Origin: Flavobacteriales bacterium 32-34-25
GTDB lineage: Bacteria > Bacteroidota > Bacteroidia > Flavobacteriales > Flavobacteriaceae
Direction of reading: 5' to 3'
NCBI GenBank assembly: GCA_002280815.1
Contig: NCET01000001.1
Span: forward strand, 1-55,405
Length of the DNA stretch: 55,405 bases
The position numbers and the translations under genes were made by a program. The notes under the pieces are model-generated. The model worked only from the letters and a program-made list of their open reading frames with translations, did not search any database and had not been told where the DNA came from. Positions 22,531 to 55,405 of the stretch are shown here, in pieces (position 1 is the first letter of the stretch; each line of letters opens with the position of its first letter).

Positions 22531-22590
22531 ATATTAAAAACAGGGTAGCCGAAAACTGAACAGAGTAGGCAATTTTAAAACCATTTTATT

Positions 22591-49803: not shown

Positions 49804-50529
49804 ATGAAAAAAATTATTTTATTGCTTTTGTTTATTACTAATTTTAGTTATTCTCAAAATGATTCTATAAATAAGCCAGATCCTGTAAACAGAGCATTAT
49901 TATCGATGATAAAAAAACAAGATGTATTTAGTTCTGAAGTTAGAGACTTATTAGTCTCTAAAGTTGAAAAAATAAAGATTGAAACTAAAGATACTAGTTT
50001 ATCTAAATTATGTGATGAATATATTACTTCTATAAAAAAAATTAAAATACCTGAAGCTGTAGAAGTTGATTTATCAAAAGCAACAAAAGAAGATTTAAAA
50101 AAGTTTGAAATTTCAAATGATAAATTCAACAAAAATTCTAATATCTTTCATAAAGGTGCTGATTACGTAAGACTGACCTTGATTCTACAGATTAAAGATA
50201 ATAAAGCATTAATTGCTTTGAGATCTCGTTATACAGGAAAAGATTGGATATTTATGAATTATGTTAAATTCCTAGTTGATGATAATACATATGATATAGA
50301 AGTAAAAGATCCTTTAAGAAATGTGTATACAGGGATGGTTACTGAAACAGCTGTTAAATATGTAGATTTAGAAATGTTAGGAATTATAAATAAAATAATT
50401 AATTCAAATACAGAGGTCAATGTACGGTTTTTGGGAAATAAAGGAAATTTTGATTTTATAATGAACAAACGATCTTTGACTGCTATGAAAGAAGTTTTAG
50501 ATTTATATAATAAAATCAGGGTTAATTGA
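49804..50529 (+). CDS. Secreted protein, probable moron
   Basis: 241 aa. Signal peptide MKKIILLLLFITNFSYSQ, then helical and beta segments with no recognised family. It is bracketed by terminators at 49746 and 50570 and has TAACTTTA upstream (about 49785), a host-like -7 box, so it can be expressed apart from the late operons. AT-richer than neighbours. Typical position for a gene that benefits the lysogen. Confidence 0.6.
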   Translation: MKKIILLLLFITNFSYSQNDSINKPDPVNRALLSMIKKQDVFSSEVRDLLVSKVEKIKIETKDTSLSKLCDEYITSIKKIKIPEAVEVDLSKATKEDLKKFEISNDKFNKNSNIFHKGADYVRLTLILQIKDNKALIALRSRYTGKDWIFMNYVKFLVDDNTYDIEVKDPLRNVYTGMVTETAVKYVDLEMLGIINKIINSNTEVNVRFLGNKGNFDFIMNKRSLTAMKEVLDLYNKIRVN

Positions 50530-50569: not shown

Positions 50570-50598
50570 AGCCTACTTTTTAGAGTAGGCTTTTTTTT
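50570..50598 (+). terminator. Terminator before the structured leader
   Basis: AGCCTACT / AGTAGGCT stem followed by eight T. Confidence 0.9.
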
Positions 50599-50599
50599 G

Positions 50600-50640
50600 A
50601 TGTGCAAATGCACATTGTTTAAAATAAAAATATATCTTTG
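50600..50640 (+). promoter_or_regulatory. Operator palindrome and promoter of the structured leader
   Basis: ATGTGCA-aa-TGCACAT (50600-50615) precedes TATCTTTG at 50633-50640, an exact -7 consensus. The predicted start site is about 50645, the first base of the structured element. Confidence 0.65.
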
Positions 50641-50644
50641 CTTT

Positions 50645-50807
50645 GCAAAACCATAATTCCTAGGAGCAATCCTAAAAAACTTTTTTAAGTTAACATAAGC
50701 GAACCCTCGTTCACGTTGTAGGTGTCTAGTGATAGCCCTGATCTCATTCCTAGGAATGGTTTTGCACAACCGACAACGAGGGTTTCGTGTATAAACTATT
50801 TTCAGAT
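50645..50807 (+). ncRNA. Structured leader RNA with interleaved inverted repeats (candidate pseudoknot/switch)
   Basis: Segment A (50645-50653 plus 50657-50665) pairs with A' (50748-50756 plus 50757-50765): 9+9 bp with a 3-nt bulge. Segment B (50700-50711) pairs with B' (50775-50787) over about 12 bp with one bulge. The order A-B-A'-B' cannot be drawn as nested hairpins, so it is a pseudoknot or two exclusive states. A' also contains TTTTGCA (50760-50766), complementary to TGCAAAA right at the next start codon (50809-50815). No terminator follows. Function inferred. Confidence 0.55.
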
Positions 50808-51089
50808 ATGCAAAACGAAAATGAAAATGAAAAATTATCACATCGTGATGTTTTTCCCGCACTGGCTAAATTTATTGATAATGCCTGGTTTCAGAGTGAA
50901 ATTAAAAATTTAGAAAAAAATTATCAGGAAGCTATTGAGCTTTTAATGGTCACTGAGTTCGCCGACAATCAGGAACTTAGAGAACGAATGTACATATCCT
51001 TAGATACTATTCGTAGGTTCAATGAGGTGTTTAAGCCTTTTTCTAAAAAACAGGTGTCTAAAGCCTGTGAAAAATTTACTCATGTCTAG
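50808..51089 (+). CDS. Tail-region protein behind the structured leader
   Basis: 93 aa from the ATG at 50808. Acidic helical protein, with LAKFIDNAWFQSEIKNLEKNYQEAIELLM. Position two genes before the tape measure gene fits a tail assembly chaperone. Its start region can pair with the leader. Overlaps the next gene by 8 bp. Confidence 0.55.
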   Translation: MQNENENEKLSHRDVFPALAKFIDNAWFQSEIKNLEKNYQEAIELLMVTEFADNQELRERMYISLDTIRRFNEVFKPFSKKQVSKACEKFTHV

Positions 51090-51468
51090 CTTGGTACCCG
51101 TTAAGATATTCTACGCCAAGGGCATTAGAGTAGCAATGAAAACCAAGACGTTCAAGGAAGTAGTAGAATGTCTTTTTGGAGATTCTCCTTTTTCTAAATA
51201 CGAACCCCTAAAAATGGTTTTTACCAGTACAGGCAAAGTCCTGTTTATGGATAAAAATGCTTTCAATTCCTATCTATCTGGAAACATTAGCATGCAGGAA
51301 CTAGTAGAACTCACCGAGTGTGACGAACTCTATCGCAATACTCAGGATGTTTTAGGAGTAGAAAAGGGGCATTTATGGAAAGCTTCGCTTAATGTACTTA
51401 CCTTAATTAGCGATGATGAATTTGTAGAAACCAAATTAGATTTAAAAGTTTTTGAAATTGTAGAATAA
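51082..51468 (+). CDS. Tail-region protein, possible assembly chaperone partner
   Basis: 128 aa from the ATG at 51082 (MSSLVPVKIFYAKGIRVAMKTKTF); the frame extends back to 51022 within the previous gene. The 8-bp overlap in another frame is a translational coupling like the G/GT-type chaperone pairs before tape measure genes, though I see no obvious slippery site. No family recognised. Confidence 0.5.
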   Translation: MSSLVPVKIFYAKGIRVAMKTKTFKEVVECLFGDSPFSKYEPLKMVFTSTGKVLFMDKNAFNSYLSGNISMQELVELTECDELYRNTQDVLGVEKGHLWKASLNVLTLISDDEFVETKLDLKVFEIVE

Positions 51469-51599: not shown

Positions 51600-52136
51600 A
51601 TGAAAACACTTTCAGTAATTAATGAAATTAAAATTGTTCAATTAGCTAACGATTTAGTACCAATTAAGCCAATTTGTGAAGCTTTGGGGATTGATGAATC
51701 CGCACAAAGAAAAAAAATTCAAGAGGATGAATATTTTAGTTCAACTGCGGTGCTGAGCACCGCAGTTGGAGCTGATAAAAAAGAAAGAGAAATGCTATGT
51801 TTACCACTTCCTTATATTTTTAGTTGGCTGGCAACAATCAATCCTAAAAATGTTAAAGAGGAAGCTAGAGCAGCTGTTCAATTATACAGAATGAAATGTT
51901 CTCAGGTAATTTATGAAGCGATGTTTCTAAAAAATAAATTTCTACAAGAAAAAGACATATTGATTGAAGAAAAATTAAAAGAACTAGAAAGTATTAGGGA
52001 TAATTTTAAAAATGCAAAATTAAAATTAGATGATGCTACAAAAGAATTGAAAGAAGCAAGAACAACAACTTTTGATGATTGGCAAAAAAATAATAATCAG
52101 GGTTCAATGTTTGATATTGATGGATTTATAGAATAG
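51600..52136 (+). CDS. P22 Ant-like antirepressor (N-terminal domain type)
   Basis: 178 aa. IVQLANDLVPIKPICEALGIDESAQRKKIQEDEYF...STAVGADKKEREMLCLPLPYIFSWLATINP...VQLYRMKC is the P22_AR_N pattern; a coiled-coil tail follows. Antirepressors bind and inactivate phage repressors. It is a separate unit between tail genes, with its own host-type promoter and terminators on both sides, so it looks acquired. A 12-bp perfect hairpin lies inside the coding region. Confidence 0.8.
   Translation: MKTLSVINEIKIVQLANDLVPIKPICEALGIDESAQRKKIQEDEYFSSTAVLSTAVGADKKEREMLCLPLPYIFSWLATINPKNVKEEARAAVQLYRMKCSQVIYEAMFLKNKFLQEKDILIEEKLKELESIRDNFKNAKLKLDDATKELKEARTTTFDDWQKNNNQGSMFDIDGFIE
51742..51768 (+). repeat. 12-bp perfect hairpin inside the antirepressor gene
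   Basis: CAACTGCGGTGC and GCACCGCAGTTG flank TGA. It encodes the end of TSTAV and LSTAV. Much GC-richer than its surroundings. Confidence 0.85.
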
Positions 52137-52265: not shown

Positions 52266-55200
52266 ATGGCAAAAACTATCTCCGACGAAGTAATGAAACT
52301 ATCCATTGAAATAAATGGAAATAAAGCTCAAACCGAACTTTTAGATCTTGAGAAAAAGACACGTGTACTTACTGAAGCTAATAAGGGTCATTTACTGCAA
52401 AAACAACTTTTAGAAAAACAAGGAAAAAAAGATACCGAACAATACAAATTGCTAACAGCAACGATGAAAGCCAATTCGGATGAAATAGTTTCCAATAAAG
52501 CAAAAATGAAAATCCTGCAAGACCAAATAGGTATAACAGGTTTAACCATTTCTCAATTACAGTCTAAAGCTATCATGCTTCGTAACAATTTACGAAATAT
52601 GGTACCAGGTTCTGCAGATTATAAACGGTACGAAGCGGAATTACAGCAGGTTTCTGCACGTTTAAGCGAACTAAGGGGAAAAGCCACACAAAGCAAACTT
52701 TCCCTTGGTTCTATGGCGGATGGCTTCAACCGTTACCAGGCTATGGCTCTTACTGTAGTAGCATCACTTACCGGTGTTGTTCTTTCTATTCAAAAAATCA
52801 TCGATTTAAACGGAAAATTGGTGGGTGCGCAATCCAATGTGATGAAAACAACCGGAATGACCCGTCAGGAAGTTGATGAGTTGACTAAATCCTTTGGCTT
52901 ACTCCATACCCGTACTTCCAGAATAGACTTATTAGGCATTGCCGAACAGGGAGGACGAATTGGAATTGCCAAAGCCGAGATAGGCGATTTTGTCAATGTC
53001 ATGAATAAAGCTGCTGTATCCTTGGGTGATTCCTTTACTGGTGGTGCTGAGGAAGTAGCGAACAAGCTGGGTAAAATCAAATTCCTTTTTGCTGAAACTA
53101 AGGATTTGGGCGTGGAACAAACCTATAATTCAATCGGTTCGGCTATTAACGATTTGGGGGCTAATGGTGTAGCATCCGAGCAAAACATTGCCGATTTTAC
53201 CACCCGAATAGGATCCCTTACTGATGTCTTAAAACCTACTATTCAGGAAACCTTAGCCCTTGGTGCTGCATTCGAAGAATCAGGAATTGAATCCGAAGTT
53301 TCCTCTCGTGCCTATGGTATTTTTATGAATCGTGCCAGTACCGGTGCTGCCGATTTTGCGAAAGTAATGGGGATTTCTAAAAAAGCGGTCGAGGATATGA
53401 TCAATACCAATCCGCTGGAATTCATGCTCCAATTTGCTGAAGGAATGAAAGGCATGAATGCTACTGATGTAGCTAAAACATTAGACCACCTTAAAATCAA
53501 TGCCGATGGTGCTAATAAGGTAATTGGTGCTATGGGTAACAATACCGCACGTTTCCGTGAATTAATTGATTTGTCTAATCAATCTTTTGCTGATGGAACT
53601 TCACTTATCAACGAGTACAATATCAAAAACAATGAACTCGAAGCGATATTAGAACGCATCAAGAAAACCGTTTCAGGTTGGTTTTCGTCTGAGACTTTTG
53701 TGAAATGGTTAACTGTGGCTGTATCTTGGTTTGCCAATTTTATTGGAGCAACTGAAGAAGCTGAAAATAAAATATCTACATGGAGAATAACTTTAGCTTT
53801 TACTGCTAAATTATTAGCTGTTCTTGTTTCTTCCATGATTTCATTTACAGTTGCTTCTAGAGTAGCTGCTATTGAAGTTAAATCTTTAGGAGTTGCAACC
53901 GCTTGGGCTAATATTCAATCTAAATTGAATGTAATGTGGTTATCATTACAAAAATTTGGATTGATAGCTTATTCTATTGTAATGAAAATATTTAGTCAGG
54001 AAGCTAAAGCAGCTACTGTAGCTATTAGGGCTTTAAATATAGCAGGTGCTGCAAGTCCTTGGGGTGCATTGTTGGCTGTAATTGCTGCGGTTACAACTGC
54101 ATATTTTGTTTTTAGAGATTCTGTAAATAAAGCTACAATTAGTCAAGATAGTTTTTCAAAACAACAAAAAGTTTTAGCGGATGAAGTAGGTAAATCTACT
54201 GCAGCTACAAAAGCACACATTTCGGCTTTAGTAAGTGTTATAAATGATGAAAATGTTTCATTGGCTACACGAAAAAAAGCGTATGAAAACTTAGTAAAAA
54301 TAGCACCTGAATTTAATGGTTTACTTGTAAAAGAAGGAGAAAAGGTTTCTGGGTTACTTACCATATATGCTGATTATATAAAAGCATTAGATCAGGTCGC
54401 TTATGCTAAAGGATTTGCTAAACTAAATGAGAAAAACATTGAAAAGGAAATTAGTGACGCTCAGAAATTATACAATGCCGAAATAAAAATGCAACAATCA
54501 AAAAAGGCATTTGATGAGTATAGAAGTAAAACTACAATAAAAAATAGAGATCTATATGTTGATATGGATTTGTCAGGTAAATATAGTGCTGATAAAATAG
54601 CCTTTGAAAAAGCTAAATCAAATTTAGAAAACACAAAAAAAATTGTAGAACAAACATCAAGTTTTCAAACCAATACTGTAAATAATTTAAAAAAAAACAT
54701 AACATTAAGAGAAAAACAACTTTCAGCATTAGAAACTAAATACGGTAAAGAAGTAGCTGCTAAAAGTTCAGGATACAAACAAATTGCATTAAAACTAAAA
54801 GCTGACAAACAATCTTTAGATGCTTTAATTGGTTCTACAGGAAATAATGGTGAGACACCGGATTCCAAATATAAAGTTCCTCAAGAAACTAATGGTTCAG
54901 GGGATAAAGCCTTGAAAAAACAGCAGGAAACAGCAAAAAAACAAATAGAGGAAACTGAAAAATTTATTGAAGATAAATTAAAATTGGAACGTCAGGCTGA
55001 GGATATCAGTCTGGATAAAATGGGTGAAGGAGCAGCTAAAGAAATAATAATAGAACAGGTATTACTTGAAAGAAAATTAGAAGATTTAGAAAAAGCTTTG
55101 AAAAAAGAAGAGGATATCAAACAAGCGTATGCAAACGCATCTAATAAAAATTTATCTGAAACCGAAAGAAGTTATTGGAAAGCACAAGCAGAATTATGGG

Positions 55201-55405
55201 AAGCTTCCAATAAAACCAAATCAATAGAAATGGAACAGGCTGTTTACACCCACAACCTGAAATTAGCCACCATTGAAGAAAAAGCAGCTATCGAGGCTAT
55301 AAATAAAAAGAAAGAAAACTTTGATCGCGAAAAACAACAACGTGAAATCAAGTTCAATGAGGAACTGGCGGCACTGGGTAATAATAAAAGAGCCAAAAGA
55401 AAACT
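52266..55405 (+). CDS. Tail tape measure protein, 3' partial
   Basis: At least 1046 codons, open at the right edge. N-terminal coiled coil, then the tape measure core: TGMTRQEVDELTKSFG, RIDLLGIAEQGGRIGIAK, VMNKAAVSLGDSF, SSRAYGIFMNRASTGAADFAKVMGISKKAVEDMI. Hydrophobic segments near residues 510-535 and 595-617 (SPWGALLAVIAAVTTAYFVF), then long coiled coils. It sets tail length and helps DNA entry, so the virion has a long tail. Directly behind late promoter C. Confidence 0.9.
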   Translation, partial: MAKTISDEVMKLSIEINGNKAQTELLDLEKKTRVLTEANKGHLLQKQLLEKQGKKDTEQYKLLTATMKANSDEIVSNKAKMKILQDQIGITGLTISQLQSKAIMLRNNLRNMVPGSADYKRYEAELQQVSARLSELRGKATQSKLSLGSMADGFNRYQAMALTVVASLTGVVLSIQKIIDLNGKLVGAQSNVMKTTGMTRQEVDELTKSFGLLHTRTSRIDLLGIAEQGGRIGIAKAEIGDFVNVMNKAAVSLGDSFTGGAEEVANKLGKIKFLFAETKDLGVEQTYNSIGSAINDLGANGVASEQNIADFTTRIGSLTDVLKPTIQETLALGAAFEESGIESEVSSRAYGIFMNRASTGAADFAKVMGISKKAVEDMINTNPLEFMLQFAEGMKGMNATDVAKTLDHLKINADGANKVIGAMGNNTARFRELIDLSNQSFADGTSLINEYNIKNNELEAILERIKKTVSGWFSSETFVKWLTVAVSWFANFIGATEEAENKISTWRITLAFTAKLLAVLVSSMISFTVASRVAAIEVKSLGVATAWANIQSKLNVMWLSLQKFGLIAYSIVMKIFSQEAKAATVAIRALNIAGAASPWGALLAVIAAVTTAYFVFRDSVNKATISQDSFSKQQKVLADEVGKSTAATKAHISALVSVINDENVSLATRKKAYENLVKIAPEFNGLLVKEGEKVSGLLTIYADYIKALDQVAYAKGFAKLNEKNIEKEISDAQKLYNAEIKMQQSKKAFDEYRSKTTIKNRDLYVDMDLSGKYSADKIAFEKAKSNLENTKKIVEQTSSFQTNTVNNLKKNITLREKQLSALETKYGKEVAAKSSGYKQIALKLKADKQSLDALIGSTGNNGETPDSKYKVPQETNGSGDKALKKQQETAKKQIEETEKFIEDKLKLERQAEDISLDKMGEGAAKEIIIEQVLLERKLEDLEKALKKEEDIKQAYANASNKNLSETERSYWKAQAELWEASNKTKSIEMEQAVYTHNLKLATIEEKAAIEAINKKKENFDREKQQREIKFNEELAALGNNKRAKRK

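Follow-up and report, generated by a model that had tools for sequence, protein, structure and literature searches.

We analyzed a stretch of 55,405 nucleotides from Flavobacteriales bacterium 32-34-25 (contig NCET01000001.1; this whole stretch is called the window here), which is a piece of chromosome carrying a prophage, and concentrated on a transcript leader that lies within this prophage, ahead of two small open reading frames (ORFs) and a tail tape-measure gene. Comparison of the leader with its relatives showed that three of its segments, namely a predicted 5′-terminal strand (A), a downstream strand (A′), and the start-codon region of the first ORF (C), co-evolve at the level of sequence, and that A′ is a predicted two-way strand, able by its sequence to pair either with A, where the transcript is predicted to begin, or with C. 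The leader is likely to be a C4-type antisense element, C4 being an RNA of phages P1 and P7, and it would act by masking the start codon of a putative tail-chaperone operon and so preventing its translation.

Anatomy, covariation, and co-residence of the leader

The leader contains complementary strands in the order A-B-A′-B′, as the first-pass annotation had described, and its folding was better than that of all but one of 200 dinucleotide-shuffled sequences (z −2.98). All features given here are on the forward (+) strand. Strand A (TGCAAAACCAT.AAT.TCCTAGGA, 50644-50665) pairs with 50748-50766 through 11 bp, a 3-nt bulge, and 8 bp, and B (AACCCTCGTT, 50702-50711) pairs perfectly with 50775-50784. 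B is part of the 5′ strand of a stem, P1 (50699-50711), the 3′ strand of which, B′, is at 50775-50787, and the upper part of P1 is formed by D (50715-50719) and D′ (50767-50771), with GTTG pairing with CAAC at 50767-50770. Stem B and its upper part D enclose the hairpin H2 (P2, 50720-50739), the hairpin H3 (P3, 50745-50758), and the 8-nt A′ core GTTTTGCA (50759-50766), which abuts D′. This core is the predicted antisense strand, and its two possible partners are the A core upstream (GCAAAAC, 50645-50651) and C downstream (50809-50816); both pairings cross B/D. The pairing with A extends into the H3 region, for a total of about 15 to 20 bp, and this inner A:A′ helix and H3 are mutually exclusive. 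C consists of the UG of the AUG plus codons 2 and 3 and is complementary to the last 8 nt of A′. The TTTTGCA that had been pointed out earlier within A′ as complementary to the bases at the start codon (ATG, 50808-50810) is indeed present, and A′:C covaries across relatives. The start codon itself would lie in the loop of a weak A/U hairpin (ATTTTC / GAAAAT, 50797-50822), which is nearly invariant and shows little covariation. A conserved linker, AAGTTAACATAAGCGAA (50687-50703), connects A to the core domain, its last bases overlapping B, and is possibly a processing or tertiary-contact segment.

Relatives were collected by scanning for the conserved linker, which yielded 13 viral and 66 genome stretches. 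Including the earlier loci, there were 87 motif stretches, 54 of which passed a simple element filter (49 distinct), and a covariance model (R1) was built from 39; as R1 was built on exact-motif elements, its matches lean towards such elements. The 112 distinct hits of this model that were parsed came chiefly from Flavobacterium phages and genomes, and in 102 of them A pairs with A′ at 7/7 positions and C pairs with A′ at 7/8 or 8/8 positions when G.U is allowed (8/8 in 85 copies and 7/8 in 17). These 102 matched copies have 11 versions of A′, and the A cores that answer them include GCAAAA, GACAAAA, GACTAAA, GTCAAAA, GCTAAAA, GCACAAA, and GTCCAAA. A G.U pair was found in C in 15 of the 102, for example, where codon 3 is AGA or GAA.

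For these counts, C was read from the earliest ATG lying 27 nt or more beyond D′, regardless of pairing, and for A the 7-mer in the 5′ part that best matched A′ was chosen (within a 51-nt range for the pairing count, 26 nt for the co-residence test described below, and 8 offsets elsewhere). The A matches are therefore partly selected, and the spacing to the promoter, given below, serves as the check. The failures among the 112 were three copies without an ATG (L099, L170, and the second copy in L174), which were kept in the denominator, the decayed second copies in L155, L143, and L176, and the copies L053, L187, L188, and L176 (A 6/7). In L187 the ATG is doubled, and from the second ATG, C matches at 7/8 (by eye). 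In L188 (1486-1664), A and C agree with each other (GCAAACA) and A′ is of another version, a natural mismatch. The decayed second copies that stand in tandem beside a better one (L155:2149-2324, L143:1737-1914, L176:1313-1497, and L174:1677-1857) have lost either the start-codon match or the start codon.

The exact −7 box that had been reported upstream, TATCTTTG (TAnnTTTG), is at 50633-50640. In F. johnsoniae and F. psychrophilum, boxes of this kind occupy −12 to −5 (PMC6847099 and PMC9723704), and therefore the predicted +1 is 50645, the first base of the A core, which agrees with the transcript start at about 50645 proposed before. With a relaxed pattern for the box (T, A/T, nn, TT, T/C, G; the last match in 40 nt), it was found to end 4 nt (86 copies) or 5 nt (14 copies) before A in 100 of 105 copies, with one of the other five at 19 nt and four having no box. 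This set of 105 was obtained from 109 copies by leaving out the truncated copy L053 and three decayed tandem copies. Because A begins 4 to 5 nt after the −7 box, A should be the first bases of the transcript.

Covariation was evaluated on 100 elements (alignment A5, with 99 of the 105 plus L036; L035, L143, L155, L174, L176, and L180 were left out) having 1245 substitutions, by 100 simulations along the tree with an R-scape-like null of our own, not R-scape itself. Two A:A′ pairs, two A′:C pairs, one B pair, and one D pair had E 0 in the 100 runs, and one H3 pair had E 0.02. Altogether, 18 column pairs were found at E ≤ 0.05, of which 7 are named helix pairs, 8 are A:C or neighbour correlations inside the A/A′/C triplet, and 3 are in the H2 region; the latter lack canonical pairing and probably reflect subtype misregister, and H2 is unsupported by this test. 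Homologous leaders without compensatory changes, the observation named in the first-pass annotation as speaking against its pairings, did not occur, and the tree-based null supports A:A′ and B.

The three compared positions of A, A′, and C agree exactly in 98 of 100 elements. On a tree built from the element minus these segments, A, A′, and C changed 22-23 times, and when 95 downstream proteins supplied the tree, the number was 36-37, counts that are perhaps inflated by recombination; the seven exact versions alone need at least 6 concerted changes. Such repeated joint change is the behaviour expected of an RNA akin to those that confer immunity. The energy of the inner A:A′ helix was −10.6 kcal/mol, whereas exchanging the partners gave −5.6 kcal/mol (0 of 5000 permutations), and this was also the case for 26 cluster representatives. 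Since covariation links one strand to competing partners (A versus C, and inner A versus H3), the leader is read as a two-state RNA, and the earlier suggestion that A′ alternates between A and the start codon is supported by the covariation of both pairings.

If the RNA acted only in cis, co-resident prophages should be indifferent to each other's version. As evaluated in genomes with two to four usable copies, these genomes being partly related, 1 of 44 co-resident pairs shares the A′ core, whereas label shuffling leads to an expectation of 7.9 (P = 0.0004; 23 genomes, 56 elements). Similarly, with between-genome pairs matched for backbone identity as the reference, 6.8 pairs with a shared A′ are predicted compared with the 1 observed (P = 0.004). 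The set includes L170 (start codon not found) and L176 (A 6/7), and left out were G949 and G1078 (second copy decayed) and the decayed copies of G863 and G1038. This avoidance of equal A′ versions within a host suggests that the element may act in trans, with A′ as an immunity specificity.

Relation to c4-2 and to the C4 RNA of P1 and P7

The leader had been put forward as an undescribed layout, a view that changed on comparison with Rfam: the core in relatives is the family c4-2, and the layout is that of P1/P7 C4. The c4-2 model (RF02944, clan CL00128; cut-off 41 bits) matched exactly the B to B′ core in 2 of 7 sources, L003 at 53.6 bits and L134 at 42.3 bits, and in the cmscan alignment of L003 the c4-2 consensus stems coincide with the RNAalifold structure and with the covarying pairs. 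The three-stem core, P1 with an internal loop around P2 and P3, is present, and covariation is significant in P1 and P3 but not in P2. The source of c4-2 is reportedly Weinberg 2017.

Canonical c4-2 RNAs were found at other loci in most of the 24 genomes from which 55 leader copies were checked against this model. Twelve such loci were read (69-82 bits), and at 11 of these a conserved 77-aa ORF follows. The antisense part at the 11 loci had a mean pairing energy of −13.4 kcal/mol with the upstream copy and −13.9 kcal/mol with the bases before the ATG, compared with about −9 kcal/mol for swapped partners; the twelfth locus, a tandem pair without the 77-aa ORF, was left out of these energies. 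The window family resembles c4-2 in having a long stem with an internal loop around two hairpins and an antisense strand just 5′ of the closing strand, and canonical copies within the genus likewise show both an upstream copy and a target ahead of the ATG. However, the antisense core of the window family targets the AUG plus codons 2 and 3, whereas the canonical target is the bases upstream of the ATG; the a′ hairpin of the window family pairs with the upstream copy, and no matching a2 was seen at the target; and the window element precedes tail genes, whereas the canonical loci precede the 77-aa ORF. At the canonical chromosomal loci (L222-L226 and L228-L233), this ORF starts 21-24 nt downstream, one example having no Pfam match, and the cargo past it varies, with HsdM in L224, a weak match to an Mrr-type restriction endonuclease in L222, and TssD/Hcp of a type VI secretion system in L226. 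The canonical c4-2 plus the 77-aa ORF gives the impression of a regulatory cassette placed ahead of genes of a mobile or defence type.

The C4 RNA of P1 and P7 has an upstream complementary copy, a1/b1, and its precursor is cleaved by RNase P to a product of about 77 nt with GGW at the 5′ end. In P1, it acts in trans and controls the antirepressor operon (icd/ant). The A / A′ / C layout of the window is that of a1b1, a′b′, and a2b2 in C4 (RF01695), with A as an a1/b1-like decoy, H3 as a′-like, the A′ core as b′-like, and C as a2/b2-like, and two copies (L182 and L186) precede antirepressor-like genes as C4 does in P1. GGW is absent from the start of B in the window, where GCGAA is found. The window element differs from C4 in being in another phylum, in having no Shine-Dalgarno sequence, and in having a putative tail chaperone as the target gene; the control of icd/ant is a property of the P1 locus and not of the RNA fold. 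In PMC5320573, C4 is given as an antisense RNA in the leader of the operon it represses, with its target at the start region and its immunity specificity set by a few bases, and Weinberg 2010 (PMC2864571) lists c4-a1b1 by name. Judged by its sequence, the window element is a diverged C4-type element, the antisense core of which has moved onto the start codon. The lambda cIII, T4 gene 32, and MS2 maturation leaders are alike in that phage-leader structure decides access to the start codon, and none of them is known to have an upstream start-region copy plus a shared antisense strand.

Genomic setting and distribution

Upstream of the leader is an inserted gene (49804-50529), behind which is an intrinsic-terminator-like site (50570-50591) consisting of a stem followed by a T run. 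The sequence at 50599-50616 had been called a palindromic operator. At the same place, phage FPSV-D15 (L032) has an intact intrinsic-terminator-like hairpin with a 10-bp stem plus a T run, whereas in the window the T run is lost and the copy was not called by a terminator scan. Therefore, 50599-50616 is better read as the remnant of a decayed terminator, and the DNA operator was dropped.

Downstream, two small ORFs precede the tape-measure gene (52266-55405; phrog_25337, E 1.4e-282), which runs off the window; their naming as tail chaperones is by position only. The first ORF (50808-51089, 93 aa) is a putative tail-assembly chaperone that matched neither Pfam nor PHROG, and as a protein query against viral contigs it found zero relatives, the DNA similarity search succeeding instead. 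Codons 1-5 of this ORF (M-Q-N-E-N) appear to belong to the RNA module. The second ORF of the putative pair (51022-51468) has an uncertain start, 51022 or 51082, and its sole match is a PHROG of unknown function. An antirepressor-like gene (phrog_524) is located at 51600-52136, between the putative chaperone genes and the tape measure; by eye, a promoter-like TATATTTG of its own precedes it, and ahead of this stands a terminator-like hairpin. Elsewhere in the window, a ClpB/ClpC-like reading frame at 5-2043 (by eye) is apparently broken near 1471-1489, two ORFs resembling parts of one gene, and there is a match to the Rfam DUF805b RNA (RF02914, 39 bits) at 22539-22571.

A BLAST search found the leader at 69-84% identity in 12 Flavobacterium phage records, including FPSV-D15, 2A, FPSV-F7, 23T, 1H, and 6H; these phages belong to the Duneviridae, Unahavirus, and their hosts are F. 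psychrophilum. The leader is upstream of the tail region in 6 of 6 annotated phage regions, and the large gene that follows bears the annotation tail tape measure in FPSV-D15 and FPSV-F7, structural protein in 2A, 23T, and 1H, and putative tail protein in 6H. In a search with the window DNA, 59 of 397 genomes had matches at E ≤ 0.01; beyond its own genome, a long match (about 200 bases) was present only in G317, which is of the genus Flavobacterium, to which the window host is taken to belong. The other matches at this threshold (about 19-53 bases) are taken as chance matches. With the covariance model at E ≤ 0.001, the element was found in 4 of 397 genomes of the family sample, 10 of 395 of the phylum sample, 59 of 348 of the genus sample, and 13 of 395 of the order sample, the four samples overlapping and the window's own genome being counted in each. 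Diverged copies are present in two other genera (L119 and L120) and one other family (L128).

In the copies read, the element precedes tail genes, antirepressor-like genes (downstream of L182 and L186), or genes of unknown function, and a transcription-regulator-like gene (phrog_129) is downstream of L180. A protein start of the form M-x-x-E-N is fused to quite different proteins, including the antirepressor-like proteins of L182 and L186, and is also found on the second chaperone-like ORF in L039 (59% identical to the second ORF of the window past the start) and L045 (by eye). The first codons can thus be said to travel with the predicted RNA.

Mechanism, alternatives, and meaning

In the mechanism that we propose, transcripts would start at A. 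Pairing of the attached A with A′, over about 15-20 bp, would leave the start codon free. If a competitor displaced A, or if A were removed, for example, by a cut that separates it from the core, A′ would be exposed and could cover the start codon in cis, and a released small RNA with A′ could act in trans on other copies of the message. In the lysogen, the tail operon would be kept silent, also against incoming phages whose specificity is the same, and during lytic growth an excess of target or messages that escape processing could lift the repression. According to PMC6847099 and PMC9976891, Flavobacterium ribosomes do without Shine-Dalgarno pairing, which would explain why the AUG itself is the RNA target.

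Several observations weigh against a C4-type antisense element. The energy over 104 leaders (the 105 minus L187) was −23.2 kcal/mol for the long A:A′ helix, making it much stabler than A′:C (−6.5 kcal/mol for the A′ core with C), and the OFF state would be rare without processing; in nested folding, by a method unable to form the required A′:C pseudoknot, the A′:C probability stayed near 0 even when the first 12 nt were omitted (mean 0.02), the start codon then being mostly open (0.81). Because the energies favour A:A′, repression should require either that a cut in the linker takes A away or that another copy supplies processed RNA. The 8th base of A′:C is mismatched in a common version (A′ GTTTTGCA, C TGCAAAAA; 13 of 109 copies). 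The window copy gave no c4-2 match, either in the whole window up to E 5 or in the excerpt L118 at E ≤ 1, and is therefore not filed as RF02944 but regarded as a diverged homologue; only 14 of the 55 copies checked are above the c4-2 cut-off, one of them a decayed copy, and the other 41 are below the cut-off at E ≤ 1 (13) or unmatched (28, including the window copy). The target in the window is a putative tail gene, not icd/ant, and the exclusion between co-resident copies could reflect linked immunity or attachment-site differences.

The same data can be viewed as a purely cis-acting translational switch, kinetic or dependent on 5′-end integrity, in which A:A′ forms first and keeps the gene on, and loss of the 5′ end silences that message. 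The location of A at the predicted 5′ end, the alternative use of one strand by A:A′ and H3/A′:C, both covarying, and the balanced core energies (−6.9 kcal/mol for A:A′ and −6.5 kcal/mol for A′:C) fit such a switch. It is nevertheless rather unlikely, because it leaves unexplained both the avoidance of equal A′ versions by co-resident prophages and the continual sequence change of the triplet, and because the c4-2 relatives share a clan with C4, which is trans-acting in P1. The ligand- or protein-binding, riboswitch-like element that the first-pass annotation had in mind, with A/A′/C as the expression platform, is improbable: the linker between A and B, the UAA after D′, and the AAUC between H2 and H3 are conserved and unpaired (by eye), and interleaved helices are common in aptamers, but the linker is not invariant in divergent copies, the core is c4-2-like, and the downstream genes are of several unrelated kinds, with the varying part being a base-pairing specificity. 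The leader matched none of the Rfam riboswitch families, a permissive scan of the window giving hits only far below the cut-offs, and nothing pointing to a small-molecule ligand was seen, the downstream genes read being tail, regulator, or unknown phage genes. We give hardly any credence to a DNA-level feature such as an operator array or recombination or insertion repeats, for which the direct repeats of the A core and C and the nearby palindrome could be cited; against this, changes that keep G.U pairs in C (15 of the 102 matched copies) and helix covariation are found, A is fixed near +1 and C at the AUG, and the palindrome is terminator-like in FPSV-D15.

Other candidates were also dropped. 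The double pairing of A′ recalls the internal guide of a self-cleaving ribozyme or intron, but splicing from A to C would delete the AUG. An insertion target-site duplication was set aside because A′ takes part in the covariation as well, ribosome hopping from A to an identical C because no ORF was seen entering A, and a leader peptide because the AUGs in the leader are not conserved.

The RNA family to which we assign the putative antisense element (C4, c4-2) is already known. None of the open-literature matches listed describes this leader, c4-2 in Flavobacterium, or antisense control of tail chaperones. As far as our searches show, what is new is the tail-operon location, the start-codon target with coupled changes in codons 2 and 3, and the decoy at +1, together with the large set of versions and the within-host avoidance of equal versions.

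We tentatively raise the broader idea, for which the case is nearly but not quite balanced, that Bacteroidota phages have at least 11 A′ specificities acting in trans on tail-operon start codons, as an RNA-based incompatibility or superinfection system at virion assembly that works without Shine-Dalgarno sequences and has the release of a 5′ decoy as its on/off step. If this is true, prophages sharing one host must differ in A′ specificity. For annotation, the analysis accounts for a leader that the Rfam model missed in 41 of the 55 copies checked. With the proposed element, C4-type antisense control would reach as far as tail genes in Bacteroidota phages, and the element would show the form taken by a C4-type RNA where ribosomes skip Shine-Dalgarno pairing, in which the RNA would cover the start codon plus codons 2 and 3 and protein residues 2 and 3 change along with the RNA. 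With many natural versions and their avoidance within a host, RNA immunity specificity would become directly testable.
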